The notes under the pieces were generated by a model, which did no database searches, had not been told where the DNA came from, and saw nothing but the letters and a program-made list of their open reading frames with translations. A stretch of DNA of 64,000 nucleotides from Opisthocomus hoazin (taxonomy: Eukaryota > Chordata > Aves > Opisthocomiformes > Opisthocomidae), in assembly GCF_030867145.1 (NCBI RefSeq), contig NC_134419.1, positions 124,001 through 188,000 of the forward strand, given 5' to 3'. The position numbers and the translations under genes were made by a program. Within the stretch, counting starts at the first letter, position 1. Every line of letters starts with the position of its first letter. This document shows positions 1 through 60,076 of the stretch, one piece after another.

Positions 1-2641
<2,641 letters not shown>

Positions 2642-3722
2642 CTAAGTAGTGCATTATTTTAGTTCTTTATCACATAAGCACATCATCAACATAGAGCAAT
2701 GAAAATACATCATTTACCATTTACAAACAATCTGTAATATGTCAACTATTTCCACCCCATTAACAACTTAATACGTATCAGCCACTCACAAATATTCTGT
2801 ACGTCATGCGTGTCTGTACATACACATGCGCACATTCAGGCACATGCACATGTATAGATCTACACATACTGCGCTCCCTTCCTCCCCTGTATTTTCTAGT
2901 TCAAAGTATCAAGCTCAATGTAGAATTAAACACCTACAAGTAGCTAGGCACCAATTCACTTCAGATCATCAGTTATTATCTTGGCATGCAATCTATCACT
3001 CAAATTACCACCCCAACTAGTCTCAAAAATAACAAGCCTAACATTTAATGAAACTTACTTCCAAGTGCCAAAACTGCCACAATCTAAAGTCACATTAGGA
3101 AATCAAATCTCATATTGAAGTCTCTTACATTGGTTACATCACCTACACTACCTATAAACATTAGTTTCTACATGCAGGACTTCTTAAGCACAAGAATAAC
3201 ATCATAAGCAATAGTGCTCAGAGTTCTTTTGTGGACAGTAAAGACAACTGCAACTTTTCTTCAGACATAAGCAGTTACTGTCATTTTTCACCTGCTGGAA
3301 CTGGAATTCTATTATGGGCTACATCTGATAACCTATGACTATAGAACTGATGCTAATTAAAGTGTTTATCAAACCCAGTAAGCATGAAGCAGTGCTGTGG
3401 TGAGATTCAGTATGCTGTCCCATCAAAAGAACGTGTAAATGCAGCTATACTCCTTGTGCATTCTAGTGGATGAAGAAGCAACAAGTAGTTTATTTCCCAG
3501 GTCTCGAAGTAATTCTAGAGCTAAACCAATAATGTTCAAATTTATACTCAGAAAATACCTGCCAAAACTCATCACAGACCTAGGGAAATTAACAAAGACA
3601 TCTCTCCCTTATAGCTTGGATTGCAAAGCAAGAAACAATTCGCTCGTGAGCATGCATCTAACCCTTAACTCTGAGCAAGTCAATAAGGACCACAGCTGTA
3701 CTGAAACAAATCTTATACCTAC
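2642..3722 (-). other. RABGGTB intron 2
   Basis: Intron with canonical ends (GTAGGT to CTTAG). RABGGTB introns host C/D snoRNAs (SNORD45 family) in mammals, but I could not find a convincing pair of C and D boxes with a closing stem here. Confidence 0.8.
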
Positions 3723-3830
3723 ATAATCATCTTTCTTTGTTCCATATGAAGCTATATAGTCCGCATGTTTCTCCGAAAGCAGTGTGCTTGGGGCATCAGA
3801 TTTTAATAGAACATCCTTCTGCGGTGTCCC
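3723..3830 (-). CDS. RABGGTB: RABGGTB exon 2
   Basis: This 108-nt, 36-codon exon encodes [20 protein letters not shown] and continues to KKDDY, matching the N-terminus of the Rab geranylgeranyltransferase beta subunit directly after the initiator Met. The acceptor is TTTGCAG and the donor GTAGGT. Both flanking junctions are phase 0: upstream it joins the ATG that ends exon 1, downstream it joins EYCM of exon 3. A longer open frame reading through both splice sites exists but has no significance. Confidence 0.96.
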
Positions 3831-7615: not shown

Positions 7616-7687
7616 TTAAGCCTTTAATGTGCCAACATGTTCATGAGCTATGATCATCCTTTGAATCTGAGCCATTCCCACATAAAT
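7616..7687 (-). pseudogene. ACADM: ACADM exon 12 with catalytic Glu replaced
   Basis: The 72-nt exon reads IYVGMAQIQRMIIAHEHV and ends with TAA at 7616-7618. Functional MCAD has IYEGT(S/A)QIQR here, and the Glu (376 in the mature enzyme) is the base that removes the alpha proton of the acyl-CoA. Here it is Val, and the following Thr is Met. The acceptor is TTTCAG. Confidence 0.92.
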
Positions 7688-10600
7688 CTGAAATGAAGAA
7701 TTGCAATAATGGTAGCTGATGATTTTTTTAAAGGTTTTTAAACAGATCTACACTGTTAAACCTTCACAGCACTAATCCAGTGTGGATTAGGATGTGCAGA
7801 AAGGCAGACAAAACTGAGAAAATTCCAGTGTGACAGAGTAAGTACAGTGGGCTAAATGGCATAAATCACATGCAAGATATTGAGAGACAGTTTTGTTCTC
7901 TCAGGTGCTCTTATGTAAACTCAGTAAGGTTCTCATGAAAATAAACAGACATGGTGAGTGAAGTAGGATGAGGAAAATATCCGAGGAACAAAATACGTAA
8001 TTTAGGTTTTACAAAGTAGCATTTAAAACAATAGGTGGAGGGGAGGAGGTCACTTGTTCTGAAAGCATGGTATTTGCTTTGACTAGCCTTTCAAGGTCAT
8101 ACCAAATGTTCTCTTTGATCCATTTATTTCTGTTGCTTCTTGTTAAGTAGTACTCTCTCCCATACAGTTTTGTTTTAGTTTTTGTTTTGGTTTTTTTTTT
8201 ATTCATGTCTTCTTGCATTTTCTTCTAGAAACAGTCTGCATCATCCCTCTTTTCTATTTCTTTGCTGGCAGCAAAGTCAAAGATATACAACAAAGCATAT
8301 ATGAAGCTCTAATGCTGAAGGAGGCCGTATGCTACACAGGTATACTGCAATGTAACACGAAGGCTGAGCAACATAGTTCATGGATTTCAGCATTTAAGCT
8401 CCCAGTTCTGACAGAACTTGGTTTGGCAAATTGCTCAAATTCATGCAAATTCACTTTCTCATTCACTTACAGGAATAATCTTCCAAGAACGTTACAAAGC
8501 TTTTTAAAAATAAAGATGCTATAACCTATGTTCACATTAGTTTTTTGGTTCAGAAGAAAGTGTTCATTCCCAAAGTGAATTCTCTGACTGGTGCTGCTTA
8601 CCCCATGTTGATCCAGTTCATAAAGCAGATTGTGTTTTGTGAATACTAGGTGCCTTCTGGAGCAAACTGAAATGGAAGCTCTGCTTTCTCTATATACCAA
8701 ATACTCACTAATCCTTTATGAAGCCATAATAGTCTAAGCCTACAACTGGACCCTTACAATTACTTACATGTGGGGGACATGCAGTCCAAGGGACCAAACA
8801 GGCTTGCTATGAACTCAGCCTGCCCAAACTGCTTGTAGTGTAGATTGTAGGGGCCTCAGCAGCTAGTCCAGCAACCTACTACTAATCTGCTCCCAGTACA
8901 CTAAATTACTTGCTGATGAAGACAGCCATGGAACTGAAGTATAAAGACATCAGAACTCACAATATTCCTACATACTTGCAAGAAAGGTTTTGGTTTATAA
9001 GCCAACGGAAATAATTTCAAGAATTTCTGACAATTGAAGAAGGAAAGTTTCCTGAATTTGAGAAGGGAAACCAAGTTAGAGTTTTTACCAGAGTAGCCTA
9101 GATTTGTAGGCAAACAAACCTAGAGCACAGTAAGGACATGTAAAAATGCTACCAGTAGACACAGCATTGGAATTGTGTAATACTGAAAAAGATCAAATAT
9201 ATGGAAGAAAAGTTGGACAACCAAGTTTTTGTACATTAAACATATGGCCAAAAGCATATACCATCTGAATCTGGGCAGCAATACAGTAAAGCACAGTGAA
9301 GTCCAAGGTATAATCAGACGTGGACAAAATAATTGTAGAGACAAAAGCCTTTCCTGAATTCCTTTGGGGATGAAGTGAAACAGAAAAACACCAGAAATTT
9401 AATACTAACTCTGATTAATCTTAACAATTTTTTAAAAGTCTGCTTAGCCATGCATTTGTGATGGATCAGTGTAACGGAAAAATCTAAATAACTGGGATCC
9501 TCTAAAATCAATCTCCGCTTTCAAATCAAGTTCTAACCGTCACACCATCTTTCTCTAGAAAAGTATGCAACCTGACAGGAAAAAAGCCCAGTCATAATGA
9601 AGTTCAAGTAATCATTCATTTCCTCACCCACAGGAGTGCAATTAGTTCTAAGAACATTTAGATTCCAAAACAGTGGCTGTGTTTCCTTAAATAGAGAAAA
9701 ATAAATTCTTGGCTAGTGAGAATAATAGTTTTTATTTTAAAGTCAGCTTAAGAGAAATATTAACTCCCTACAATCTGAAGAATGACAGCTGTTACAGCTA
9801 ACTAACATTACAGGTCATGGTCCACATGCATTTCTTGATGTCATCTATTTTGATATGTTTTACCTAGTCACAATGTCATAAAGAGGTGAAAATATTACTG
9901 GTTTTGCCGAACACAATTAAAATATTCCTGCTGAATAAAGAACTGTAGCATAGTATACTCTAACAGAAAAACTATGACATGGCATGGAATAATCTCTTGG
10001 CAGTAACACTGCAGAAAAAACCTGGGGATTACGGGTGACAGGGCTAAACATGAGTAAATATGATTGGGTTTTGTTCTTAAAAAAAAAGGCTAACCCCTCT
10101 AGGTTGTGTCACACTTCTGTTAATACAACACATGCAAGATAATCATTCCATAATACTTGATACTGGTGATATTGCAGCCAAAGTATTCTACCCAGCTTAT
10201 GATACCAAAGTTTCAAAAAAAAAGGTTTAGAGCACAGCAACAAATGATGAAAAGTCTGGAAACAGAAGGGGGGGGACACCCAAACAAATGAAAAAAACCC
10301 CCATAACTTGTGAGGAAAAAGGCGAAGAAACTTATAAGGGAAAAAGGTGAAGAAGCTGCTTTAGTGTTCAGGCTGAGAGCAAAGCTGAACTATAGGCAGG
10401 CACCAGCCCAGGATACGTATGAAAGGTCAGAGCACTTCCATCACTGAAGGTTTTCAAGAACAGCATTATACATAAACCATCTCTACTTACAGAATACCAA
10501 AGCAAGCATTGGTATTTTGATCAGGTGTTTTTATAGTGTTTTCTTCTAAGAGTTCAAAAGCTTCAAAATTAAGAGTCTAAGAATTTCAAAGACTTACCAC

Positions 10601-10833
10601 ACGGGGGTGGGGGGGGGAGGGCAGAGAGGAGAAAAAGAAAAAACATAATTTCGTTCCTTTATGTGGGTTGAGTTGTTGGTCCAGTGCAATGACTTTTGCA
10701 TGCAAGAATTTTCCTGATCTGAATGTATCTTTCTTTAAATTGAACGATTGTTGCTTTCATTGTAAAAACTTTTTATTATGCGTGTACATCACGATTTGAA
10801 ATAAGTAGCCATTAGTTTAGTTTCTATAAATTC
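7688..10833 (-). other. ACADM intron 11 (distal part)
   Basis: AT-rich unique sequence with several homopolymer runs. No exon, RNA gene or mobile element was recognised. It ends at the CR1 copy next to exon 11. Confidence 0.6.
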
Positions 10834-11124
10834 ACAATCACAGAATGTCAGGGGTTGGAAGGGACCTCTGTGGGTCCAACCCCCCTGCCGAAGTAAGGTC
10901 TCCTACAGCAGGTTGCACAGGACCTTGTCCAGGCGGGGCTTGAATATCTCCAGAGAGGGAGAATACATAACCTCCCTGGATAGCCTGTTCCAGTGCTGTG
11001 TCACCCTCAGAGTGAAGAAGTTCTTCCTCATATTCAGACGGAACTTCCCATGCTTCAGTTTGTGCCCATTGCCCCTTGTCCTGTCGCTGGGCACCACTGA
11101 AAAGAGTTTGACCCCATCCTCCTG
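10834..11124 (-). mobile_element. CR1 LINE 3' fragment beside ACADM exon 11
   Basis: About 290 bp of CR1 3' sequence on the minus strand, with the usual 'gggttggaagggacctctgtgggtc' start on the plus strand and an ATTCTGTG tail. It is moderately diverged from the young copies. It lies only about 35 bp beyond the exon 11 donor and produces a chimeric open frame (10903-11343) that joins exon 11 to CR1; this is not a gene. Confidence 0.93.
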
Positions 11125-11160
11125 CATTACTATAAAGATCACATTCTCCCTTTTACTTAC

Positions 11161-11392
11161 CTGGCAGATTTTAGCATCTCTCATTAGTTTTTCTACAGGA
11201 CATTCAGTATTAAATCCATTTCCTCTAAAAATCTGTACTGCATCTGTAGCTACTTGGTTTGCAATGCCACCAGCAATTGCCATTGCAATGGAAGCATAGT
11301 AGGTATTCCTGTGACCAGCATCTCTGGTAAGCCATCCTAGCAAGTCCCACTTTCATTGTCATTTCAGCAAGCAAGAAAGACACTGCTTGGTG
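11161..11392 (-). pseudogene. ACADM: ACADM exon 11 with 17-nt deletion
   Basis: The exon opens with [20 protein letters not shown] and ends with [17 protein letters not shown] before donor GTAAGT. Between AYQR and [11 protein letters not shown] the codons for AAWEV are missing. The remaining length (232 nt against 249) implies a 17-nt deletion and a frameshift. Two conserved Tyr are Cys and a conserved Gly of the FGGNGF motif is Arg. Confidence 0.94.
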
Positions 11393-12080
11393 CTGTGAAC
11401 GATGAAATAAACTAGGTTAACATTGCCTGCTTAAAATTCTGTGACATCCAAGAAAAATATAATCTCCTTAATACAGTGATCTCTTCAACAAACTCAGTAA
11501 ATTGTACTAGAGGAGTTCTACAGAATAAGGATCATGCTCTCATAATTGTATGTTGAACTAGACTTTAAGTTTTTAATTCTCAAATCCATTTAGTCATAGG
11601 GATTAAATACTGAATTATTAAATTCTTTACAATTTATGAGATTGGTATTTACCTTGCTGTTTATTCATATTTGTTTAAACTAGTAAGTGGTGTGATTTGC
11701 AATGTATTCTATTAGTATTAATACTGTGTGTCTTATTTCACATAGCTCAGAGTTTTTTCCTTTCCTGAAAATCCCTGTTTATTATCACTGAAGAACTTAA
11801 TTATGTCCTGAAAGTACATGAGTTCCAGGGCAGAGTTTTCTTTCAGCTTTTATTATTGTCATGATAAAGTACAGAAAAATTCCTGAAGTTACCACATAGC
11901 TAAGTTTACTCAAATGGTGCTGACCTATATACTTGGAAACCAAAAAATGGCAGAGATATAGAAAAATTAAGGGACTAAAAAAATCAAGGAATAACCTTGA
12001 AAAATCAGTCGTAGTACATCTGGTGTGAAAACACAGCTTTTATTTATATTCTCTCTCTCTCCTCCCCCCTCCCCACTTAC
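11393..12080 (-). other. ACADM intron 10
   Basis: AT-rich intron. A short CT run (12050-12061) lies near the exon 10 donor. Nothing else was recognised. Confidence 0.7.
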
Positions 12081-12176
12081 TTCAACAATTGCTTTCCCAA
12101 AGGTTTTTCTCTCCAAAGCATATCTAGTAGCTTCATCAAGTCCTCTTTTTGCTAATCCAGCAGCACCAGCTGGTAC
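12081..12176 (-). pseudogene. ACADM: ACADM exon 10
   Basis: The 96-nt exon encodes [20 protein letters not shown] then [12 protein letters not shown], matching MCAD. The frame is open. Acceptor TTCAG and donor GTAAGT are intact. Confidence 0.95.
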
Positions 12177-12253
12177 CTGAACTGAACACAGGACAAAATG
12201 AAAAATCAGAAATTCCTGCTATATTTTATACGTAAGTTATTTCTGATACTTAT

Positions 12254-12393
12254 GGGTGGTCTGGTCTTATCAAAAGCTCCCATTGCAATTTCAAAGCCAG
12301 CTCTCTCAGCTAGTAATACATTTTCTTTGGGCCTATTACATCTTCAAAGACAACACCTCTTGTAGCTGAGCAGTGTTGACCCACATTAATTTC
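12254..12393 (-). pseudogene. ACADM: ACADM exon 9: 1-nt deletion and lost donor
   Basis: The exon starts [19 protein letters not shown] and continues in a shifted frame as [20 protein letters not shown]. One G is missing at the PK/EN junction, giving 140 nt against 141, and the original frame then meets TAG. The exon end CCACCC is followed by ATAAGT where GTAAGT is expected, a G-to-A change at a former CpG that destroys the donor. Confidence 0.93.
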
Positions 12394-13257
12394 CTGAAAA
12401 GTGAAATTTACAGAGGTGCAACTAAATTGGATTATTCAAAGGTACAATATGTTTTCATTCTTTAGTTTACTCAAAGCATAAAGTCCGCTTTTTTCCTCAA
12501 AACAATCTAAGAAGTACCATATACAGCACAAACACAAATTTTGCACTTGCAGACCAGCATGCCCTTAATTTGTCTAAGCTGGGTGGTTTACCTTCTCCTT
12601 ATATGAAACAGTTCTGTAGCTGTAATTAGTCTTCTTGTCTTTCTCTAGCTCAACTATATCCTTTGAGATGGGAGTGGAAAAAGTAAAGAATCTAATAAGC
12701 AGGCAGTACAGGTATACTAGAAGTAAATAAATAAATAAATGAGCTTTTCAAGTGTTTGGATTCCTTTCCTAAAGTTCAACATCCAGTTTTGCCTACTACT
12801 AAAAATAGTACCTTTTTTTTTTTTTCCTTTTTTTAAAGAGAGAGAGCTAGCACCAGTGTCTCCAAGGCCCCTTCCTTGACGAGCAGTAGCTAAAATTAAA
12901 GTTCACTCTGTGTATATTTATGGTTAAAATTGTCCAACTTGCTTCTTATCCTTTCAAGGCGTACTACCTTTCATTTATTGCCACTTCTCAATAAAATAGT
13001 TCTCAAAGATTCTTTTGCAGCTGTTCAAAGTCACCTTACTTTAGACCACTCTGAATAATTCCTTATCAGAATTAACAAAATTATAATTGTCTTATGAATA
13101 GTTTCTGTATGTTGTGAAAATGAAAACATCATTGTACATGACCAGATGAAAATGTTCAGTTGTGCAAGTCTTTTTTCTTTAATGGTAATTTGGTGCATTA
13201 TTGGTTTAGAATTGAACAATAATTCCTGACTTGTCAGATAAGAGATACGGTCTTCAC
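12394..13257 (-). other. ACADM intron 8
   Basis: AT-rich intron with a short AAAT tandem run near 12726-12742 and a poly-T tract near 12810. No coding or RNA feature was seen. Confidence 0.7.
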
Positions 13258-13366
13258 CTTTCTTCCAGTTTGGATTCCAGCGCTATCTGCTTCCACAATG
13301 AACCCAGTAAAGGCTCTGCTTGCAGGAACTTTTGGATCTGGACTGGTACGAGCTAGCAAAAAATAC
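13258..13366 (-). pseudogene. ACADM: ACADM exon 8
   Basis: The 109-nt exon encodes [20 protein letters not shown] then [16 protein letters not shown], a clear match to MCAD. The frame is open, with acceptor ACTAG and donor GTGAAG. Confidence 0.95.
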
Positions 13367-14561
13367 CTAGTGTAAAACAAAGAAGAGGGATGCAGTTTAT
13401 CCTCACAATTAACAACCAAATACTTTCTTTAGCAAACATTTTAAATGTTTTCATGTGCATTTATACCATATGATAAATTCTATCTCGAAGTTAACAACCC
13501 TTTTTTCTTACCCCTCCCAAAACCAAACTGAGAGGGAGTGAGAGAGAAGCTTCAAAGATTCAACATTTCATAAAATGTAATAAAATTACTTCAACATGCA
13601 AATATTCTCCACCTCTTCCATGTATTGTAAGTCTTTATGATATTATTAGCTTCATGAATAGTACAAAAGAAACCTATTCAGAGCACGTGCATAAAAATTA
13701 ATGCTTAGGAAACACATTCTTGCATGCAAAATGTTATGTTATCACCTGATTTCAAAGATCTTAATTTTCTTCTTCTAAGTATAAGCTGTAAATAAGTATT
13801 TATCTTAGAAATTGAACAGTTGTAAATCATATCTATGGTGTTCAGTAATGTCAGAAGATATCTGGTAGATTGTCCTTGATGGATCTGCCTTGAACAAGGA
13901 AACAAATAACTAGAAAATTCAGCTTTTGGATAAACATAAAGATTTTCCACTTGAATTAAGAATAATTCGTGTGTTGTGAATCAGTGTGATGTGAGACACG
14001 ATGAGAAAGGTTTATATTGTAAAGTATGCTCCATAGGCACCACAGCAGTATCTGGATTCTTTGACAGCTGGAAAATGTTTTCCCTTCAGAAAATAAAATG
14101 TAACACCGCAATCCAACAGTGTTTCTAGCTTCACTAGAAGTGAGAGATATTTCTAGTAGAATCAGAAGCAACTGATCTCAATCACCACAACTACAAAGCA
14201 AGGTAGCTAGTAATATGAGCCTCTTGAGTCCTTTGCAAGTTAAATATCATACTGTTTGTTGTCCTGCCCTGAAGAAAAAGCAGCATTAATTTTGTTTGAT
14301 AGCAGCAAGATTTGAGAGGCCTTCTTGAGTGAGGAGTTGTCATGTCATCACTCATTTTCCTTTTTAGGCTTTGCACAGCACTGAGACTGCATTCTTATAC
14401 CCTATCCTGCAAACTGGTCAGAAATTAAAGTGTAGTGTGTTGAAACACAATGAACATTCAGATTTATAACAGATCTTTAACGAATTCAGCTTTCAGGGAG
14501 GGGGGAAGCCACTATATAACATAACAACAGAAAACATAACATGAGTTAAGAGTTAACATAC
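13367..14561 (-). other. ACADM intron 7
   Basis: AT-rich intron. Several small open frames occur but none resembles a known product. Confidence 0.65.
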
Positions 14562-14660
14562 CAGTTTGCTTTCCCACCGTTGTGATGCAAAATCTTGATG
14601 AGTAAGAGTTCCACTTTTAGGCAACCACAAATTATTGCAGACCGTGTGCATCAAACTGAT
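14562..14660 (-). pseudogene. ACADM: ACADM exon 7, degraded remnant
   Basis: Only the 3' end is clear: TCACAACGGTGGGAAAGCA then AACTG before donor GTATGT, corresponding to ITNGGKANW with one base of the Asn codon missing. The rest, between acceptor TTTTACAG and this end, barely resembles MCAD. The exon is 99 nt against an expected 131, so about 32 nt are lost, including the substrate-loop motif TEPGAGSD. Confidence 0.75.
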
Positions 14661-15421
14661 CTGTAAAAGGTTTAAATAAACTGCATGGTAAAACCCAAAA
14701 CGTTGAATAAAAAAAACCAAAACCATCCAACCCGAAAAAATCCACAACAGCTGCCTGAGCAAGAATGCAAACGTATATGAGTTAATTTTCTTTATAAATC
14801 CATTATAATACATAAAATTGTCTTTTAATCAAACAGAACTGTTCTGTAACCCCTAAGTCATCCCTTCCTCAGGCTTCACAGACTCTGATGTGAAAGCTGA
14901 GGATCTTCAAAATCTGAAAATAAGAGCACTGAGTAACATTTTATGTTTACTGTGTCCTTCATTTTATGAGGCTTAGTTGTTTAGATTTTAATGCATTGTA
15001 CGTGAATATTTACTTCTATGTAACAAGTACTGCTTATACAATATTTAAAATCACAAACAGAGTTTAATTCTCATCCAAGTTGAGTTTCTCCTTATACAAA
15101 CCTCTTATTTTTCTCACACGCGTACACACCCTCTTGGAAGGGAAATAAAAGGTATTAATTTTTGGTAAGTGACTTAGGATGGGGATGATTTTCCAAGTAA
15201 TATCTTCCATTTGCTTATTGAATGTATCTGCTTAGCTATTCCCTGACTTTCAATAAATGGCGCTGTTTATTTACAAACCAAAATGGTCTAAGTTATAAGT
15301 ACATGTCAGAGTTTTCAGGGGAAGAAAAAAAGGGGGAAAAAAAAAAAGAAAAGAAAAAGAAAAGGAGTAATACTGATTAGTATGGTTTAGGAACATTCTA
15401 CACTGTAGCAGTTATACTTAC
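14661..15421 (-). other. ACADM intron 6
   Basis: AT-rich intron with a purine-rich A/G simple tract (about 15326-15366). No other feature was recognised. Confidence 0.65.
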
Positions 15422-15502
15422 ACACATCATTGGTTCCTTGGTCATTCTTCCGAAGTATTTTTTCTGCTGATGCTGATTTTCTGCAATGATTACTGGCATT
15501 TG
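15422..15502 (-). pseudogene. ACADM: ACADM exon 6
   Basis: The 81-nt, 27-codon exon encodes [20 protein letters not shown] then TKEPMMC, the same length as in human. The frame is open and the splice sites are intact (TTTCAG, GTAAGT). Confidence 0.95.
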
Positions 15503-15588
15503 CTGAAAGAAAATATTTAGACCATTAATCCATGTTTTTAATATGCGCAGATTCTAGTTTAAGGGACGTAAGAAAAGACAGAACTTAC

Positions 15589-15689
15589 CCCTAGGGAATT
15601 TGCTTCAATGGCAGATTGAACCCCTGTACATCCATAAGCTAACTCTTCTGTAATAAGGCATGCTTCAAAACTGCCAAGGCCAAGACCAC
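15589..15689 (-). pseudogene. ACADM: ACADM exon 5
   Basis: The 101-nt exon encodes [20 protein letters not shown] then [13 protein letters not shown]. The acceptor used is CTGTAG, which restores the Gly codon split with exon 4. The donor is GTAAGT and the frame is open. Confidence 0.95.
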
Positions 15690-16229
15690 CTACAGCTGAA
15701 ATACTTCATTTATTAAAATGGGTTTAAATTGTAACATATTAATTAACAACAACATACTCCCCTACATACATTTGATCATGTACCATGTTTGATTAGACAT
15801 TCTCATGCAAGCTTTTTAAATAAAGTTTTGCCAGAAGAGTAACAGGTGATTTGAAAATTACATGTCACAGTTCCAGGGTTATTGTGTGATTAATGTGGGG
15901 CAAGTTGCACAAAGTGCCAAGAATGTACCACTTAAACTTGTTGACTACTTTACTTTTGAGAATTAAGAGTTCTCAGGAAGCAGAGAAAGGGCTCCTGAGC
16001 TACCACAGCAGAGCGGCAAAAATAAAAAATGTCGATATTAGTCAGACAACCAACTCAGTAACCTGTTTCTGACAAAAGCCAACACTTTGGGAAATACATA
16101 CAAATACAATAACAATACAACTATACTTCCTCAAAAATATTTTCCCAAGCCTTCAGGTGACTTCCTCAGCCAAAGAGATACCTCTTTTTTGGTATCTTTG
16201 TTATGCTAACCCTTGACAGACAATTCTTA

Positions 16230-17430
16230 TGTGAATTTGCCCAGTCGCATTTTGAATCTATGTAAAATTTTAGCATCAGTATCATCCAGGGGCAATGAGT
16301 TTCACAAATTAACTACACACTGCATGTAGAACTATCTCCTTTCATTTATTTTGAACCTGTCATCTACTGACTTAATTGGAGGCCTTCTAGCTATATTGAA
16401 AGGGACACTGAACTATCAATCCCTTTTCACACTCTCCATGACACTGACATTTTAGTAATTTCTCATACAGAAGCTACATCTCACACATAAGATACATATC
16501 TTTTACAATCTTTGTCATCCTTTTAGGAACCATTTCCATAATACTCTTTTGAGATGGAAGGATCTGACTACACAATCAATTAGAGCCAAGTGCAATTTGG
16601 ATTCAGGCAACAGCATAATTATGCCTTCTGCTTTTTTCTTGATTCCCTTAAAGGTCCCTTCTGACCTTAACTTTTATGGTTTTGAGCATTTCTGAGCATT
16701 ATGCTGATGTTCACAGACCTGTCTATTATAAACCCACAAATCTCTTTTCTGAGAGGCAGTAGCTAGTTCAGAAGACAGCATTTCTCTGTGAAATTCAGAT
16801 TGCTTCTTTCCCTTCACATGTGCATCACTTTTCCTTTTCTGAATTGCATTTGCCCTTTTAGCAGTCACTCAGTTTCATGACCTCCTGCAGCTCTTTGCAC
16901 CAGCCTCATTTTTTCTACACTAAATAACTTAGTATTATCAGTAAAGTCTATCACCCCAGTATTGACCCCCTTTTCCAGTTTATCTATAGATACTCCAAAT
17001 CACACGAGACTGAGCAAGGCTGCACTGCTAATTTTTCCACTATGAAACCTGATGATTTTTAAAACTGATTTTGGAAGTTCAAGCATTCTATATCAACCAG
17101 GCATCCCTTGTTCACACACTTGTTGGCTACTTCAGAGAACTCCAATGATTTTATGAGGCATGACTTCCTTTCACAAAACTCCTTCTCTAGCATATCAGAT
17201 TTGCCTTTGTCCACTATTTCTGTACTTCATCTTGCTCTTAATTTACATGGTGTATCAGGCTTACTAGTATGTATTTTCCCAGATCTCCCCTGGAGATCTT
17301 TTAAAGCAATGGTGTCCAATCTGCCACTTGTAATTTTTCATTTAATAACTAATGGATTATGCACTGCAGTAGTCCAGCTATTTCAGCCTTTAGTTTCTCT
17401 AGAATTTGTGGCTGAATAAATCTGGTGCTC
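16230..17430 (-). mobile_element. Old CR1 (CR1-L type) in ACADM intron 4
   Basis: Scattered but ordered blocks resemble an old CR1-L consensus read on the minus strand: the 'ggcaatgagttycaca' block near 16290, 'gcagtcactcagttt' near 16860, 'cccttttccag' followed by 'atctatagatactcc' near 16970, and 'tatgaggcatgacttccttt' near 17150. The element is heavily diverged and interrupted, so it is an ancient insertion. Boundaries are approximate. Confidence 0.7.
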
Positions 17431-17604
17431 ACAATTGCTCATTTTGTCTCTTTGTTCCTTAACATCATTTATTAAATTTTGGTACAAGACATACCCTCTG
17501 ATTAGTCTTCAGAAAAAAGGTTTGCTGTGGACACTTCCCTAACTTCTTTTTCAGGTAATATAAATGCAAACAAGAAAATAATTTAATATTTTTTCCATGG
17601 TTAC

Positions 17605-18308
17605 TGATTCGAAGATCCGGTAGGAAAAACCTAACAGTACAATGTATACTGTTAAGCAGGTATTCTTTATTGCCGCGCCGGGCACACGGGGGATTTCTCC
17701 TCCAAACATGCGTGCCAGACACCCTGTTGCTTCAGGTTAAATACAATCACACATGTAATTATTCATTATATTTCTAGGAACTGATTAGCATATGTAAATA
17801 TCTTTCACGCATGTCTGTTAGTATCTTTGGGTGGTCTTCGGGGGTCCCAAGATGAAGGCCCATCCTCTTCATCACGCTGTTCACTGATTGACATTTGTTT
17901 CTGCACAAACTCAGTTCTAGCATCACGTATATCATGTCCTTCAGGTTGTTTTGCTCCGGTCTTGTTGCTCTCTTGGTGCCTCCTTATCTCTGTAGCTTAG
18001 CGCATTTGCCCTCCCAAGGCCGAGCTGTCTGGACTAGAGTTATTTAGGAGTCTCTTTTATCCCACAATTATCCCAATTATTTGCTGAGAATCAAGACCAC
18101 TTTTGTTTCACTTAATTATTTTGTCTAACGACTACGTGATAGCTTGTGCCCATGTCCTTCCACTACATTCCTTAATGAGAAAACAGGGATTAGTGTAACA
18201 GTTATATTGTTAGATCGCTATGCATGCAGAAATACAAGTTACAGTACTAAAGACTACTAAAAACTAGAAAATATTAAGGCTTTTTGTTATAGTTTCACAT
18301 TTCTTACA
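17605..18308 (-). mobile_element. Solo LTR of an endogenous retrovirus, minus strand
   Basis: On the minus strand this about 700-bp element starts TGTAAGAAATG and ends near CTTCGAATCA. It carries a polyadenylation signal AATAAAG (17665-17671 region) followed by CCTGC, as expected of an R region. It shares ordered blocks with the plus-strand LTR at 29214-29863, including GATGAAGAGGAT, GGACCCCCGA, ATCCCCCGTG and the AATAAAGAAT motif. No internal retroviral genes follow on either side. I found no clear target duplication, so the 3' limit is approximate. Confidence 0.75.
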
Positions 18309-18741
18309 ATCCCCTCTATCATTACTCATGTACATAAATACTGCCGAAGCACTGCTGTACTGCATCTAAGCTAAACTGAAAAACTGTCCTTCTGGAATAA
18401 ACTCTTAAATTGCTCCAGCCTGTGTCAGAGACTAGAACAAAATGTGACCTTCTAATTTCTCTGCCTAATCAGCTGACACAGTGCACCAGGGGGAACATTA
18501 GGCAGTTGTAATCATGGTAGGAAATCTGGTCATAAATTACTAAATCATAATCTCTCTAAGTTGTCTCCTGATTACATCCACACCTAGTAACAGTTGTATG
18601 TGTCAACCTGCCTACTGATTAAATGTAATTATTCAACTATGCAACTGTTTATTCTATACAGAATCCATAATTACACATATAAATCTCATCTAATGCCTTT
18701 TCTTTGTTTCATTTCACAGATTAAAAAGAACGTTTACCTAC
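18309..18741 (-). other. ACADM intron 4, proximal part
   Basis: AT-rich sequence between the LTR and exon 4. Nothing was recognised. Confidence 0.6.
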
Positions 18742-18809
18742 CACAGCTTTCTGGTATGTGAATTCATAAGACCAAGTTCCCAAGTCTGTTTTATAAGTGG
18801 AAGAGGATA
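18742..18809 (-). pseudogene. ACADM: ACADM exon 4 with 2-nt deletion
   Basis: The exon encodes YPLPLIKQTWELGLMNSH and then, in a shifted frame, PESCG. Two nucleotides are missing at the Ile codon of the HIPE motif (CATACC where CATATACC is expected), giving 68 nt against 70. The donor is GTAGGT. Confidence 0.92.
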
Positions 18810-18917
18810 CTGAAATAGACAGGGGAAAAATCACCTGATTCATCACAATCAACATTTTAAATTTGATGCAGGTTAAGAGAAAAGTCTATTTTTTCCCTTA
18901 CACTATGGTAGATTTAC

Positions 18918-19015
18918 CTCTCCAGTCTTGTCATATTGTGCAGCAACAGGAATAATTTCCTCCACAGCAAATTTATGAGCAGGACCTTGAAACTCTTGCT
19001 GTTCATCAGTAAATT
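18918..19015 (-). pseudogene. ACADM: ACADM exon 3
   Basis: The 98-nt exon encodes [20 protein letters not shown] then [12 protein letters not shown], the N-terminal helical domain of MCAD. The frame is open, although KFAREEI has become KFAVEEI and other usually conserved positions differ. Confidence 0.94.
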
Positions 19016-19842
19016 CTATTTAAAAAAAACAAAACAACAACAAAAAAAACCCCAAACAAAATAAAAAAAAGAGGTCACATTTTCTACTGTCTTTAATGTT
19101 GCCAGTTGCCAGACTATAAGAAAAGAGAAAGCAAGAGTGTCCTTCTAGGACAACCCAAACCACCACTTCCTGGGCCTCTCCAGGAAGCAAAAAAGCTCAG
19201 CTTCCTCTTCCTCCTGGGAGAAAACCTCCACTGTTCTCTCGTTAACACCTACAATGCACGCGCTTAATTCTGACGAAATTTTCCACAAAATATTGAAAAT
19301 TGAGTAGAGAAGACTGCATAACTAAAATGTATTACCAAAAGAAACCAGAAGAATGCTGTGGTAATTGAAGGGAAGAAGAGAAGGAGGCAGATGTCATCCA
19401 AAGATCCTGACTATTCAGTTCAAACATCTAGCTGCTGACCCACTAAATTTGCTTTATGTATATAATATGCCAAGATGAGGATGAAATTTTTTTATGACAT
19501 TTCCCTATAACCAAGTTCAACTACGACTACATTTAGTTGCTTTAACATTGTAAACGGCAAAGTAAGACAGTTATTCAAGGCTGAGACACTTTGGCAATAA
19601 AAAAGCTTAAGGCAGACATGAATTAAAAAAAAAGAAGAAAATCTTACAAACACTACACAGATAACTGACTTGCCTGAGATGAGGAAGAAAGTAATTTCGG
19701 TTTTCAAACATTGTTTTTAAATCTATTCAGAATAAACATCTTCATTTTACATTCATGTTGAACTGCAATATAGGATTTTATTTTTTTAACTCTGCAATTT
19801 GCCCTTAATTGCTATATTTCTTTCAAAAGCTGTAATACTTAC
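19016..19842 (-). other. ACADM intron 2
   Basis: Begins with an A-rich tract (19020-19072) that forms the T-rich tract before the exon 3 acceptor on the minus strand. The rest is featureless. Confidence 0.65.
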
Positions 19843-19930
19843 CAAAGCTAAAGCCAGCTCCAAGTTTGCCTATATGTAAGTTTTGAGCAGATTTACTAGA
19901 ATGTCACCTCCATCCATGCCCTGCAATGGT
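19843..19930 (-). pseudogene. ACADM: ACADM exon 2 with in-frame stop
   Basis: The 88-nt exon has the same length and phase as in human and ends LGAGFSF before donor GTAAGT, splitting the Glu codon with exon 3. The transit-peptide part reads GHGWR, then TGA, then HSSKSAQNL. The stop could derive from a CGA Arg codon by CpG decay. Confidence 0.88.
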
Positions 19931-20112
19931 CTGAAGCATTTGCTAAAGAGAAAAAGAACATGAGGTGCAAGATCTTCACTTCATCTCTCATTTATACACA
20001 CACTTATCAAACCTGATTTTCTTGTCCACTAGTGAATATTCTATCTATCCAATGTTTACCTACATGCAGATTTAGCAAGACTTTAAAAACAACCTACCTA
20101 TTAACCAAGGAG

Positions 20113-21285
20113 CTGGAAGCCATTATACAGCAGGACAGCTATGACTTGGTTGCCATCACAGAAACGTGGTGGGACAACTCACATGACTGGCATGCTGTCA
20201 TGGATGGCTACAGACTCTTTAGGAAAGACAGGCCAACAAGGAGAGGTGGTGGAGTTGCTCTATATGTGAGGGAGCAACTGGAATGCATTGAGCTTGGCCT
20301 GGGGGCAGATGAGGAATGAGTTGAGAGCTTGTGGGTTAGAATTAAGGGACAGGCTCATAAGGGTGACATTACGGTGGGTGTGTACTACAGGCCACCTGAC
20401 CAGGAGGAGGAAATTGATGAGGCCTTCTACAGGCAGCTGCAAGCAGCCTCACAGTCACAGACCCTGGTTCTCATGGGGGACTTCAACCACCCTGACATCA
20501 GCTGGGAAGACCATACAGCTAGGCAGGCACAATCCAGGAGGTTCCTACAGAGCATCGATGATAACTTTCTGATGCAAGGGGTGGAGGAACCAACAAGGAA
20601 AGGCGTGCTGCTGGACCTTGTGTTAACAAACAAGGAGGGACTGGTGGAGGATGTGAAGGTCGGAGGTAGACTTGGCTGCAGTGACCATGAAATGGTCGAG
20701 TTCAGGATCCTGTGTGGAGGAAGCAGGCCGATAAGCAGGATCAAAACCTTGGACCTCAGGAGGGCTGACTTTGCCCTCTTCAAGGAGCTACTGGGAGGTA
20801 TCCCGTGGGCCAGGGCTCTCGAAGGCAGGGGGGTCCATGAGTGCTGGTCGCTCTTTAAATGTCACTTCCTCCATGCTCAGGAGCAGTGCATCCCCCTGAG
20901 AAAGAAATCGAGCAAAGGAGGCAGGAGACCTGCGTGGTTAAACAAGGAGCTTCTAGTGGAGATCAGGTGGAAGAGAAAGGTCCATGGAATGTGGAAAGAG
21001 GGGCAGGCCACTTGGGAAGAATACAGGAATGTGGTCAGAGCGTGCAGGGATGCGACGAGGAAGGCCAAGGCCCACCTGGAATTGAAGCTGGCAAGGGATG
21101 TCAAAAACAACAAGAAGGGCTTCTTCAACTACATCAGCAGCAAAAGGAAGGCTAGGGACAATGTGGGGCCGCAGCTGAATGAGGCGGGTGTCCTGGTGAC
21201 GGAGGATGCAGAGAAGGCAGAGCTACTGAATGCCTTCTTTGCTTCAGTCTTCAGTGCTAAGACTGGCCCTCAGGAATCCGGAGGT
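20113..21285 (+). pseudogene. CR1 ORF2, endonuclease half (broken)
   Basis: Encodes the APE-type endonuclease domain: SYDLVAITETWWDNSHDW, then VGVYYRPP, LVLMGDFNHPDISW and a SDHEMVEF motif (catalytic Asp/His region). An in-frame TGA at about 20317-20319 follows GLGADEE, and the frame is lost near 21279, where 8 nt present in the other long copy are missing. The N-terminal part of ORF2 and all of ORF1 are absent. In an intact CR1 this domain nicks the genomic target DNA. Confidence 0.9.
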
Positions 21286-21289
21286 AAGA

Positions 21290-22828
21290 GAAGAAGCCTA
21301 CAGAGAGGACGACTTTCCCTTGGTCGAGGAGGACTGTGTGAGGGATCGCTTAAGCGATCTGGACGTCCACAAATCCATGGGCCCCGATGGAATGCACCCA
21401 CGAGTGCTGAGGGAGCTGGCAGATGTCATTGCTGACCCACCCTCCATCATCTTTGAGACGTCCTGGAGGACAGGAGAGGTGCCCGAGGACTGGAGAAAGG
21501 CCAATGTCACTCCAGTCTTCAAAAAGGGCAAGAAGGAGGACCCAGGGAACTACAGGCCGGTCAGCCTCACCTCCATCCCGGGAAAGGTGATGGAGCAGCT
21601 TATCCTGGAGGCCATCATCAAGCAAGTGGAAGAAAAGAAGGTTATCAGGAGTAGTCAGCATGGATTCACCAAGGGGAAATCATGCCTGACCAATCTAATA
21701 GCTTTCTACGATGACATGACTGGCTGGGTAGACAAAGGGAGAGCCGCGGATGTTATCTACCTCAACTTCAGCAAGGCTTTCGACACAGTCTCCCATGATA
21801 TCCTCCTAGGGAAGCTCAGGAAGTGTGGGCTGGATGAGTGGTCGGTGAAGTGGATTAAGAACTGGCTGAATGGCAGAACTCAGAGAGTTGTCATCAGCAG
21901 CGCAGAGTCTAGTTGGAGGCTGGTAACTAGTGGTGTCCCTCAGGGGTCAGTACTGGGCCCAGTCTTGTTTAACTTCTTCATCAACGACCTGGATGAAGAG
22001 TTAGAATGTACCCTCAGCAAGTTTGCTGATGACACCAAACTGGGAGGTGTGGTAGACACACCGGAAGGCTGTGCTGCCATTCAGCGTGACCTGGACAGGC
22101 TGCAAAGTTGGGCAGAGAGGAACCTGATGAGGTTCAACAAAGGCAAATGCAGGGTCCTGCACCTGGGGAGGAACAACCCCATGCATCAGTACAGGCTCGG
22201 GGCTGACCTGCTGGAGAGCAGCTCTGCGGAGAGGGACCTGGGTGTCCTGGTGGACGACAGGTTAACCATGAGCCGGCAGTGTGCCCTGGCTGCCAAGAAA
22301 GCTAATGGAATCCTGGGGTGCATCAAGAAGAGTGTGGCCAGCAGGACGAGGGAGGTTCTCCTTCCCCTCTACACTGCCCTGGTGAGGCCTCATCTGGAGT
22401 ACTGTGTCCAGTTCTCGGCTCCCCAGTTCAAGAAAGATGAAGAGCTACTGGAGAGAGTCCAGCGGAGGGCTACAAGGATGGTGAGGGGACTGGAACATCT
22501 CCCCTGTGAGGAGAGGCTGAGGGAGCTGGGCTTGTTCAGCCTGAAGAAGAGAAGGCTGCGAGGGGACCTAATAAATGCTTATAAATATCTTCAGGGTGGG
22601 TGTCAGGAGGATGGGGCCAAGCTCTTTTCAGTGGTGCCCAGTGATAGGACAAGGGGCAATGGGCACAAAGTGAGGCACAGGAAGTTCCGTCTGAACATGA
22701 GGAAGAACTTCTTCCCTCTGAGGGTGACGGAGCACTGGAACAGGCTGCCCAGGGAGTTTGTGGATTCTTCTTCTCTGGAGATATTCAAACCCGCCTGGAC
22801 AAGGTCCTGTGCAGCCTGCTGTAGGTGA
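21290..22828 (+). pseudogene. CR1 ORF2, reverse transcriptase half
   Basis: An uninterrupted reverse-transcriptase frame. Visible motifs in order are [77 protein letters not shown] and the catalytic [10 protein letters not shown] box (about 22017-22046). The CR1 C-terminal domain with [12 protein letters not shown] follows. The start methionine nominally at 21230 belongs to the frameshift region. The C-terminus has a late frame change ([14 protein letters not shown]) relative to the 59.3-kb copy. The protein would do target-primed reverse transcription, but the copy is defective upstream. Confidence 0.92.
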
Positions 22829-22912
22829 CCCTGCTTTGGCAGGAGGGTTGGACTAGATGACCCACAGAGGTCCCTTCCAACCCCTACCATTCTGTGATTC
22901 TGTGATTAACCA

Positions 22913-25380: not shown

Positions 25381-25439
25381 CAGATGGCAACACCCATTCA
25401 GACCATGAAGATGAAGGCCGTAAACTCACGGATAACAAC

Positions 25440-26270
25440 GCGGAGCCAAGAAAAACAGAACAGAGAGCGATTTTCAGCCCTGCACGGCTTCGCCCTCCGG
25501 GGCAGCCCCTCGGCATTCCAGCTGCCACGGCCAGGAGCGAGCGGTCATGGCGGCGGGAGCCGGGCTTGCCCCGCGGTGGCCGCCCGCGCTTCACGGCCCC
25601 AGGGCGACGGAGCTTCGCCCTTGGTCCTGTCCGGGCTGCGGAGCGCGGGCGGCTGCGGCGCTCCCTCGGCCTGCGGCACGCCCGGCCTCCGCCCGCCAGC
25701 AGCGCCCCGTCCCGTCCCGCCCCGTCCCCCCGGCCTCCGCCGGCCAGCAGCGCCCCGTCCCGTCCCGTCCCCTCGGCTTCCGCCCGCCAGCAGCGCCCCG
25801 TCCCGTCCCGTGCCCCCGGGACTCACGCTCCGCCCGCGCTCGCCCCGCGCCGCCGCCGCCCGGCTGCCCACACGAGCGGCCCTCCCCGCGGACATCTGGG
25901 CGGCGGTGGCTGGGGAAGCCGGGGCGATGCCGCGCAGGCTGTCCGCTCAGCCGGGCGCCGAGGGGAGGCCGGGCGCCGAAGGGAGGCCGGGCCGGGCCGG
26001 TGTGCTCTGCTCCCCGCGAGGGCCGCCCTGCTCCTGTGCCCCGGGGCTGTGCGGGCTCCGGCGGGGTCCGCGGGGGGCGGCCGGGCAGGCCAGGTCTGGG
26101 CACGGCTGCCGGCCCCCGCCCAGCCGGAGGGGAGTCCGCTTGTTTCCTTCGCTGCCGGCTCCGCGGAGCCCGGGCGGGGCGGGCCCGGGCGCGGCGGGCG
26201 GGGGTCTCTGACCTTTCCCCAGAACGGCGGCCCGTGCGCTGCAGAGAGGGAGGGTCTGCCCGAGGCTTAG
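25440..26270. promoter_or_regulatory. CpG island, presumed former ACADM promoter
   Basis: An 0.8-kb island of very high GC and CpG density lies about 5.6 kb upstream of ACADM exon 2, where exon 1 and the promoter are expected. I could not find the short exon 1 coding segment on the minus strand. The plus-strand open frames here (for example one starting ATGGCGGCGGGAGCCGGG at 25546) have CpG-island composition and no recognisable domain, so they are not called as genes. Confidence 0.7.
25684..25818. repeat. GC-rich minisatellite, three units of 43-48 bp
   Basis: Three imperfect tandem units starting GGCCTCCGCCCGCCAGCAG at about 25684, 25732 and 25775, each followed by CGCCCCGTCCCGTCCCG. They lie inside the CpG island. 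Confidence 0.9.
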
Positions 26271-28205
26271 CTCATCCGCTCTCCTTATGTGAAGTCTGCT
26301 GGGCTGTCGCCAGCTAGCTACGGCTTCTCCCTGCTTGCAGAGAAGTCCCTGTGACTGTTTTATTGTATTTTTGCCCCTCAGGGAAGCACAAACTCACGTT
26401 TTCGAGGTGCACCAGGGACCGGGGTGTGACTGGGCCTGGCTCATTGGCCCTGCTCGACCCAGCTCTGGTGCGCTTCTGGCAGTCACGAGTCTCTGTTCTG
26501 CGGCTGAAACACAGCGTGTGCCTGGACTTGGTCCCTTTCCAAGAGCTTCTAGACTCATAGTTACAAAAGAACACAATCTACTGGCGTAGCGAGGCTTTTA
26601 CAATCTGACTTTCATACAAACGTGAACTTCCATGCTGTTCTTAATTTGAGATATCACAGTGATGTGTGCTCTGTTGATAGTTACATAAAACATGCTTATA
26701 AATGCTCTCAATTCTGGCTGTATGTTAAAACAAAAGCGTTCGTTTTGTAAATTATCTGCAGTGTGTAAAATACACTCGTTTGAATATTATTGCTGCAGTG
26801 TTGTCAAGCAGTGTTATTTAGGATTTTGTTAAAATAACTCTTTCAAGACAGATAGCTACTTCATCTATGAATGACTTTTTTTGGTGTGAAATTTTAACAA
26901 TTACTGAAACATAAAGCACTTTTATGAAAGCTGGATTTTAGTTAACATTTTATTTTGCATAACAATTCAAAGTAAGGTGTTCCAAATATTTACAGCACCA
27001 TTATTGTCTTGGTGTGTTTGGTTCTTGGTTGCTTGTTTTGCTTCTGACAGGTGAGCGTATTGATTTTGTACTTAATACTAAAGAAACACTTCAATAGGAG
27101 GCTACCAGTGTAAGAATTGGTTTTTGGCATACATATCAACTGATTAAAAAGAAGCTGATTGTAATGCTGTGTAGGCTTTACACTGGCATGACTCCACATG
27201 ATTGCCAAATTGAGGCATGTAAACAGCCTTCACTTAGTGCACAGGCTGATTTTTTACTCCAGTATTAGTGGGTTTTTCCCCCCGTACTTTAAGGGTAGTT
27301 GAATAAAAGGCATAAGCACAGTTTATAACTTTCTGTTACTTCAGTACTCTGTGAAGATTTTTGTATGTTCTCCCTGTTCTAAATCTAGTTTCAAGTACAC
27401 CATACCACTTCTTGTGGAAATTACACATGCCAGTCACCGTAACAGGGTTTGACTCTAGGTTTCCACAGAAGCCAGAAGATGGAGTCCTTTATGACAGTAC
27501 TTTTTATTAATAGCACTGCAGCTTGAGCTGAGTGCATCTGAATGGGCACCCCAAACAAAGAAGTCCCTGGGCAATTATACCCTCCCAGTCCAAGTTCCCC
27601 ACCCCTCCCACCATAGTTTGGACCAACAGTAATATTAAGGTCTGGGGTCTTCTTGGGTTTTGTCGGTTTGTTTTTTTTGCTGTTTCATTACTAAGCGGCT
27701 GCTCAGTGGTCATCTTCTTGCACAATAGCACATCCTCTTAGGTCAGTTTCGGCCAATTCTGTGGTTAGCTATTCGGCATGCTGCAATACGATTGTTACTG
27801 TTCATGTACCATGATCCATAGGCTTTGTCTACTCTAGCTATTAATGTTTAAGCTGCTAGCTCCAAGTTTCAACTAACTTTTTCTACAACACACTGGACTG
27901 TATGGCTTTTAAAGACCAGCATTGAAGTCTGCATTTTGTGTTCCATTTTATACAGGGTGCTGTTCCATAGGTCATGTTTCTGAATATGGTGTGGGAGTTT
28001 AATGACTGAGCAGTCCATTTTCTATTCATATATTATTTGTCTATTATTGTATTGTTTGTGTATACATAGTATCTCTGTATTCCTCAGTTGATTTATCATC
28101 ATAGCAGCCCTTGCTGTGATGGTATATGAGGAAATATACTCATCTCATGTTTTGAAAGTTTAAATTTAGATGCAGCATGGATTTTACTATGTGTATTCTA
28201 ACTAG
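26271..28205. other. Intergenic, nothing recognised
   Basis: Unique AT-rich sequence to the right of the island. Short open frames at 26.3-26.6 kb have no recognisable similarity. Confidence 0.5.
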
Positions 28206-29863: not shown

Positions 29864-30639
29864 GAAGGACAAAAAAATCCCCACAATTTAATGCAGAGGG
29901 GGAAATAACTTCCCCCATTACTTCCACTGCTACCAGAGAAAAACTGCATGTGTGAAATTTAGTAATTAGAGCAATTGGCCTGAATTGAGACCTCTGGGAG
30001 GATGGATAGGGTGCTACATATGCCTGATTTAGTTTTCTTAAAACTAGCCAAGACAGCTTGCTCTCCAGGACCTGACGTTGCACTGACTGTGGAGGAGGCA
30101 CATACCCTCACTGCCTCTGGCACATATATGATTGGTTTATGTTTCAGTACAAGCATAATAACAACTTCCATGACCTCTGCACATTAATTTACTCATAAAC
30201 AAAATAATCATGCCTTTGAGGGTCTAAAACCAATTTTTGAAAGGGTACCTTTATTTGCAAGCCTTGGAAGAACCTTTTTCTCAAACCGCTTATGTGTAAA
30301 AATGTAAATGATGGTCTACAGGTGCACTTCTGTCAAGAATTACACAGGGTTATTTCACAAATTTTTCAATACAAAATGTTCTGTGTGTTGGGCTTTGTGC
30401 TGTTTCCCTAACAACAGACTAACAGGTAGATAGCTATGTGACATCTGAATACAGCGTTCTTTTGCTGCAGTAACGATTTGGGCTGTCAATGACTTAAGAA
30501 GAATCTCAGCTATCAGATTTATTGCTCTTTAAGTGGCCGTTGTCCCGTTCAGATAAAACAAAGGGAGGTGGATGACAACTACAGGAAACTTTCTGACCAG
30601 CAATCTACATTTGTCAGCACTGAACCTGTTTTTTGACTC
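29864..30639. other. Intergenic between LTR and CpG island
   Basis: AT-rich sequence with no recognised gene or repeat. Confidence 0.5.
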
Positions 30640-59286: not shown

Positions 59287-59324
59287 CCAGGGGGTTCCTG
59301 CAGAGCATCGATGATAACTTTCTG

Positions 59325-60063: not shown

Positions 60064-60076
60064 GGATGACTTTCCC

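Follow-up and report, generated by a model that had tools for sequence, protein, structure and literature searches.

The ACADM gene at its site beside RABGGTB in Opisthocomus hoazin is a decayed, intron-bearing pseudogene. Judged from the genome sequence, ACADM in this bird looks to have been moved and multiplied rather than lost, and with the ancestral-site gene dead, we consider it probable that a satellite-flanked daughter kept the MCAD function and was later multiplied. The window analyzed here is a stretch of 64,000 nucleotides (NC_134419.1, positions 124,001 to 188,000) of contig C6, which is 81 Mb long; unprefixed coordinates are those of the window.

Structure and lesions of the ACADM pseudogene

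We searched the window by tblastn with human MCAD (421 residues, all identical to PDB 2a1t) and found ACADM exons 3-6, the end of exon 7 and exons 8-12, all collinear and on the minus strand. Exon 2 was identified through alignment with intact copies, not by tblastn. Exons 2-12 span 7616-19938 (minus strand) and adjoin RABGGTB. Lesions were compared base by base with an intact ACADM copy of the same genome as the reference; exons 3, 5, 6, 8 and 10-12 were placed by tblastn plus this alignment, and exons 2, 4, 7 and 9 by the alignment. The results showed that exons 3 (18918..19015, 98 nt), 5 (15589..15689, 101 nt), 6 (15422..15502, 81 nt), 8 (13258..13366, 109 nt) and 10 (12081..12176, 96 nt) are open. 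Exon 2 (19842..19938, 97 nt) has an in-frame stop at codon 20 (intact-copy numbering), and exon 4 (18742..18809) is 68 nt long compared to 70 nt in intact copies, with a 2-nt deletion. Exon 9 (12254..12393) has lost 1 nt (140 versus 141 nt) and its donor has changed from GT to AT, and exon 11 (11161..11392) has a 17-nt deletion (232 versus 249 nt). In exon 12 (7616..7687, 72 nt), the catalytic Glu codon has become Val (E402V in intact-copy numbering), and the original stop codon is retained. The initial annotation, made from the window alone, had described the locus as a multiply disabled pseudogene with these same lesions, and the alignment confirmed each of them. Its account of exon 7, a loss of about 32 nt together with a frameshift, has to be revised: a single 122-nt deletion removed 20 intron nucleotides including the acceptor and the first 102 of 131 exon nucleotides, the remnant consists of the last 28 nt only (14562..14589) and has a further 1-nt deletion, and what had been taken for a degraded 5' part of exon 7 is intronic.

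The disabling lesions are thus several and independent (a stop, five deletions, a lost acceptor, a dead donor and the Glu to Val change). Chance likeness of these exons to ACADM is excluded because the exon 11 pair reached E 2.5e-27 in tblastn. That the lesions are too many for sequencing error is also supported, and such error is very unlikely as their source because the adjacent RABGGTB gave seven strong exon matches with 69-93% identity. Five of these seven are stop-free and the other two have a single TAG each, of which the one in the match at 2441-2644 reads as an intron acceptor. The window copy is an unprocessed (duplicated) pseudogene, with the parental exon-intron structure, several lesions and an intact paralogue in the genome. 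It is not a processed pseudogene, a class in which introns are absent, as introns are found in both the window copy and the intact copies. It is also not unitary, which would require a genome free of any functional homologue, the function of the copies being judged here from their open frames and constraint.

Surroundings of the locus

In human, ACADM is adjacent to RABGGTB and co-oriented with it. The same arrangement was found in the window, in agreement with the syntenic placement proposed initially: the open RABGGTB exon with the protein start lies downstream of ACADM at 3720..3830 and the following coding block at 2441..2644 (C6:126441-126644), both on the minus strand. Between them, also on the minus strand, is SNORD45 (3498..3580; 50.7 bits to Rfam RF00279, whose gathering score is 42), a snoRNA known to reside in RABGGTB introns. 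The term ancestral site rests on the human gene order. As for the other neighbor, SLC44A5 gave one insignificant tblastn match only, with an approximate query sequence.

Intron 4 contains a solo-LTR-like insertion (17605..18321, unstranded) with TG..CA ends and TTAC on either side, which is unmatched in the C36 copies described below. Directly 5' of exon 2 lies a CR1-like LINE of ~2.8 kb with long open frames (20101..22904, plus strand, start placed by eye). Homology of the locus to the C36 copies stops at ~19,975, and no exon 1 was recognized beyond this point. We did not accept a candidate exon 1 in GC-rich sequence (25.4-26.4 kb), which is unproven rather than excluded: with two shorter templates, its score was reached by 21 and 3 of 200 shuffles and the opposite strand scored higher, and with the longest template it scored 99.3, above all 200 shuffles (maximum 93.0) and above the opposite strand (87.2). 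The ATGGCGGCG motif on the plus strand of this stretch was judged to be a common start-site motif.

Intact ACADM copies elsewhere in the assembly

The whole assembly was searched with human MCAD, and 18 further intron-bearing ACADM loci were found, 11 on contig C36 and the remainder on C13, C15, C19 and C54; at least 14 are left once suspected assembly duplicates are set aside. Exons 5, 7, 8, 9 and 11 each match all 18 loci besides the window, and these matches are free of stops except for a TAG at the edge of exon 7, which is the intron acceptor. We read 11 copies in detail, one of them covered from exon 2 to 7 only. In all 11, the recovered exons showed zero length change, canonical AG/GT sites and no stop, and the catalytic Glu lies within IYEGTAQ in all 10 copies with exon 12 read. 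Two C19 matches over exons 3-4 contain stops; they span intron 3, and the spliced exons read open. Full-length MCAD frames with the catalytic Glu are therefore present; the product of C36:424k has 422 aa, is 85% identical to human MCAD (355/419 aligned) and has the IYEGT motif. Exon 1 is present in 8 of the 11 copies and absent in two (C13:9.24M and C19:0.325M); in three profiled C36 copies it lies in 500-bp windows with a GC of 0.71-0.78. According to the initial annotation, an intact copy elsewhere with normal expression would make the window locus only a dead duplicate. Intact copies are there on the sequence side and the locus is a duplicate, but not only that, as it is the copy at the ancestral site that is dead, and the intact copies make up an amplified family, most of them satellite-flanked where checked.

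The C36 copies form a tandem array on a contig of 2.9 Mb, with units mostly 28.6-32.8 kb apart and one copy inverted; C13, C15 and C19 are 18.6-29.8 Mb long. Open frames between two copies in one ~30-kb unit appeared by eye to be CR1 reverse transcriptase-like or GC-rich noise. The C54 copy is identical to C13:0.78M (100.000% over 15,681 bp). On C36, a 91.7-kb block is repeated, its spacings agreeing to 2 bp or better, and two pairs of 3.3-kb segments from this block are 99.97% and 100% identical. Some of the copies may be duplicates created by the assembly.

A ~190-bp satellite forms the 3' flank in 9 of the 10 ACADM loci checked, although C36:424k has just 521 bp of it. At the exception, C36:2.757M, there is no satellite in the 11.5 kb past exon 12, and it lies ~3.6 kb ahead of exon 1 instead. 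Two mid-C36 samples were satellite throughout (GC 0.56), and the satellite is widespread in the genome, also lying on further long contigs, C17 and C40 among them. The copies thus show the amplicon pattern of many near-identical copies beside satellite DNA. Owls and woodpeckers are described as having repeat-rich genomes in the available text of PMC12455985, with 1.6 Gb, largely centromeric satellite, for the snowy owl. In a search with the alpha-A globin, the best single-chain matches were probably bird entries (3wr1, 1faw, 3a59), and 2zfb, probably from a parrot, ranked below other alpha-A entries.

Divergence and selection

The window copy differs from the intact copies by a noncoding K2P of 0.33-0.34 over ~8 kb (~73% aligned identity), and the intact copies are 97.9-100% alike among themselves over exons 2-7 with introns. 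This old divergence together with the near-identity of the copies points to an old duplication, death of the syntenic copy and a recent amplification of the other copy. At a substitution rate of ~2e-9 per site per year and with equal branches, the duplication would date to about 80 million years ago; the intact copies are GC-enriched (1456 window-AT/copy-GC differences versus 511 in the reverse direction), so branch rates may differ and this date is not relied on. With human as the outgroup (339 codons), 46 replacements since the split fell on the window branch and 7 on the intact branch, and, if the branches were equal, the window copy would have evolved neutrally for some 40-50% of the period after the split. 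Among 10 non-redundant copies, there are 12 nonsynonymous and 14 synonymous variable sites overall, and past codon 40, beyond the presequence, 4 nonsynonymous versus 11 synonymous (binomial P = 4e-5 against neutral site proportions). Codons 14 and 365 distinguish the C36 copies that were read from the remaining ones. At the level of sequence, this shows purifying selection on the mature protein of the intact copies.

Origin of the intact copies

We propose that ACADM was duplicated long ago as a genomic segment, introns included, and that the daughter ended up elsewhere, beside the ~190-bp satellite, where it would have retained MCAD function. The syntenic gene, no longer under selection, would then have decayed. 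In a more recent phase the daughter would have multiplied, chiefly as the tandem array on C36, with further copies reaching satellite blocks of C13, C15 and C19, probably via unequal exchange between satellite arrays. RABGGTB has significant matches at one locus only, so ACADM would have moved without it. The intact copies are presumably transcribed and would supply the MCAD of the cell.

A true loss, with a unitary pseudogene and a bird without MCAD, is scarcely credible: the syntenic copy is certainly dead, but the loss of MCAD is unsupported because 18 other intron-bearing loci exist in the same assembly and every exon in the 11 read is free of lesions. The earlier suggestion that ACADM had been lost or replaced therefore holds for replacement, by a paralogue, and not for loss. 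It is also very improbable that the extra copies are wholly assembly artefact or contamination. The exact 15.7-kb identity of C54 and C13 and the repeated 91.7-kb block with its nearly or fully identical 3.3-kb pairs are suspicious, but the other copies read differ mutually by 0.1-2.1%, they lie on four contigs of 2.9-30 Mb (C54 set aside), and the satellite beside them is also on long contigs such as C17 and C40.

It is unlikely, on present evidence, that the intact copies are silent or germline-only heterochromatin amplicons that leave somatic tissue without MCAD despite intact genes. Satellite-adjacent copies could be silent, and a single working copy could keep such silent copies free of lesions through gene conversion; most copies adjoin a satellite found widely across the genome, and chicken pericentromeric amplicons are testis-biased on 7 of 10 dot chromosomes in the available text of PMC9974502. 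Against this stand the purifying selection on the mature protein, the mere 7 replacements on the long branch leading to the copies and the exon 1 retained in 8 of 11, although expression confined to the germline would produce the same constraint. Returning to a satellite-flanked daughter that kept the MCAD function, we give about even chances to the fuller statement that the only genes still encoding this conserved energy-metabolism enzyme here are an intact family, recently amplified across several chromosomes and lying in satellite-rich, probably heterochromatic DNA, and that the ancestral locus is dead. Heterochromatic amplicons would then bear an essential metabolic function, with a dosage that is possibly raised or germline-biased.

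Comparison with known systems

In the literature covered, which is incomplete, we recognized no report of ACADM/MCAD loss, pseudogene or multicopy state in birds, and ACADM was not found in PMC13192246. A survey of syntenic sites alone would count ACADM as lost here and base a metabolic story on that, and the copies occupy the type of repeat-rich sequence often left out of draft assemblies. If the satellite-flanked copies supply MCAD, a conserved metabolic gene would here clearly have entered satellite DNA and been amplified as the original died, which would open questions of the expression, mutual likeness and dosage of such genes.

Elephant TP53 copies are mostly retrocopies, unlike the ACADM copies, every one of which retains introns where read. 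The TP53 copy expansion in elephants is similar in its many additional copies of a usually single gene, as far as the available text of PMC5061548 describes it. The avian genes IRF9, CARMIL3, PLEKHA4 and TPPP2 have been relocated off their syntenic sites and are likewise absent or dead at the expected place and intact elsewhere, according to the available text of PMC12954441, whose main text does not contain the term ACADM. For those genes, a dot chromosome was the expected place and the actual one lies elsewhere, whereas ACADM was expected on the large contig C6, and here the dead original persists and the new site is multicopy. The available main text of Huang et al. 2023 (PMC9974502), in which the terms ACADM and acyl-CoA are absent, describes chicken multicopy genes (amplicons): those of the dot chromosomes, in pericentromeric heterochromatin, and the W-linked HINT1W. 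In both these cases and ours, a coding gene has been amplified with or beside satellite into many intact copies, and C36 is likewise a GC-rich, small, satellite-rich contig that may or may not be a dot chromosome. Unlike the chicken amplicons, ACADM encodes a conserved mitochondrial beta-oxidation enzyme and its original locus is dead, so that no intact copies were found other than the amplified ones, which lie also on the larger contigs C13, C15 and C19.

The syntenic ACADM locus

The human MCAD protein used as the query, letter-for-letter identical to PDB 2a1t, gave minus-strand matches that follow the exon order and run from 19,025 to 7,622 of the window. RABGGTB, significantly matched in the assembly at this locus only, lies downstream of ACADM in the same orientation; five of its seven strong exon matches contain no stop and two carry a single TAG, one of which is an intron acceptor on reading. 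SNORD45 is located between two RABGGTB exons. In human, ACADM adjoins a co-oriented RABGGTB, so these neighbors place the window locus at the site expected from human gene order and bear out the synteny proposed in the initial annotation.

With intact ACADM copies elsewhere in this genome serving as templates, exons 2–12 were placed to the base, and the exon-by-exon reading confirmed a multiply disabled pseudogene. The stop in exon 2, the 2-nt deletion in exon 4, the 1-nt deletion and dead donor in exon 9, the 17-nt deletion in exon 11, and the loss of the catalytic Glu in exon 12 were all present. Exon 7 is indeed damaged, but the reported loss of about 32 nt is in fact a single 122-nt deletion, which took the acceptor and 102 of the 131 exon nucleotides. 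Exon 1 was not recognised at the window locus, and a CR1-like element lies directly 5' of exon 2.

Two CR1-like LINEs on the plus strand of the window (about 20101–22904 and 59280–61582) contain long open frames (371 and 532 aa, and 272 and 522 aa, respectively), suggesting recent activity. Intron 4 carries an insertion of about 720 bp (17605–18321) with TG..CA ends and TTAC on either side, unmatched in the C36 copies, that looks like a solo LTR. Two GC-rich, CpG-island-like stretches (about 25400–26300 and 30500–32500), with GC as high as 0.84 and CpG o/e reaching about 1, are found 5' of the pseudogene; one of them may be an orphaned promoter of ACADM or mark where a plus-strand neighbor begins.

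Intact ACADM copies outside the window

Loss of ACADM from this bird, one of the two outcomes first proposed, is refuted at the sequence level by at least 18 further loci in the assembly (1.48 Gb, 415 contigs; window at C6:124001–188000), 11 of which were read and found open. Exons 5, 7, 8, 9, and 11 each occur at least 18 times outside the window, and the locus counts are lower bounds from the best candidates scored. The loci are spread over contigs C36 (11, at 0.40–0.66 Mb and 2.76 Mb), C19 (3), C13 (2), C15 (1), and C54 (1). The C54 copy (within 2,014,001–2,030,500) is 100.000% identical to one C13 copy (within 772,001–788,500) over 15,681 bp, satellite included, and C54 may be a haplotig. 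On C36, exon 11 positions from 431,846 to 615,195 show unit spacings of 30,200, 32,843, and 28,632 bp and then the same again within 2 bp, a three-unit pattern whose 91.67-kb period holds nearly to the nucleotide. Two of the three unit pairs of this 91.7-kb block, compared over 3.3 kb, were 99.97% and 100% alike; three C36 copies thus seem to repeat others, and either the block was duplicated very recently or the assembly duplicated it. With these three and C54 set aside, at least 14 distinct loci are left.

The 11 copies read came from C36 (4), C19 (3, one for exons 2–7 only), C13 (2), C15 (1), and C54 (1). In all 11, every recovered exon was as long as its template, was bordered by AG and GT, and was free of stops. 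The script reached exon 11 in ten copies and exon 12 in nine, and exon 12 of the tenth (C36:2.757M) was seen intact separately. Exon 1 (MSAF..R before GTGAGC) is present in eight copies and was not covered in one of the other three; C13:9.24M and C19:0.325M are without it, exons 2–12 still being open. In C36:424k exon 1 is bracketed by two CR1 pieces, and it is apparently between these that the two copies have lost about 2.0 kb net. Exon 2 of these two copies starts with an in-frame ATG. In the stretches holding three C36 copies, the sequence separating exon 1 from exon 2 contains an 18-bp GC-rich tandem repeat (L013 1955–2255, L016 2157–2428, and L019 6830–7268).

The intact-copy product has 422 aa, retains the catalytic Glu, and shows 85% identity to human MCAD. 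Comparison of ten non-redundant copies gave 12 variable coding sites that are nonsynonymous and 14 that are synonymous. The first 40 codons hold eight of the 12 nonsynonymous sites; beyond codon 40 there are four nonsynonymous versus 11 synonymous sites (P = 4e-5 against the neutral expectation, sites treated as independent).

Satellite surroundings

A tandem satellite of about 190 bp (191–199) follows the gene in nine of the ten loci whose 3' side was retrieved (C36:396k, C36:424k with 521 bp only, C36:454k, both C13 copies, C15, two C19 copies, and C54). At C36:2.757M, no satellite was found in the 11.5 kb after exon 12, and a satellite block lies upstream of exon 1. C36 was also sampled at two arbitrary points, 1.5 and 2.2 Mb, and both 8-kb samples consisted entirely of satellite; the best 40 of 478 candidates included close matches to the monomer on C17, C25, C33, C40, and nine further contigs. 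Inspection by eye of the interval between two C36 array copies showed CR1 pieces and GC-rich open frames and nothing else.

Divergence and history

Between the window gene and C36:424k, noncoding K2P is 0.33–0.34 (about 8 kb aligned), and dN and dS over alignable codons are 0.099 and 0.52. GC content is higher in the intact copies than in the window gene, which may inflate this distance. With human as the outgroup, 46 replacements over 339 codons fell on the window branch and seven on the intact branch. In a tree of the window sequence and 11 copies, built from exons 2–7 and their introns, a long stem (0.38) leads to a shallow crown in which the copies are 97.9–100% alike. This indicates an old duplication and a recent amplification or last homogenisation. 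The four C36 copies split from the seven others at codons 14 and 365 (the latter uncovered in one copy) and also in this tree (support 0.92–0.94).

Discussion

Replacement, in which the intact copies stand in for the dead syntenic gene, is the simplest account of these sequences. A segmental duplicate beside satellite DNA would have kept MCAD alive while the syntenic ACADM decayed, and satellite-driven exchange would then have multiplied the duplicate. Alternatively, the intact copies might be expressed in the germline only, a reading made serious by the multicopy genes in pericentromeric heterochromatin of chicken dot chromosomes, which are often testis-biased (PMC9974502). The protein constraint argues that at least one intact copy is in use, whatever the tissue. 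Instead of gene loss, the hoatzin sequence presents a more unusual situation, a dead syntenic ACADM with intact copies multiplied elsewhere. The chicken dot-chromosome genes are the closest published class to the amplified ACADM copies (PMC9974502).
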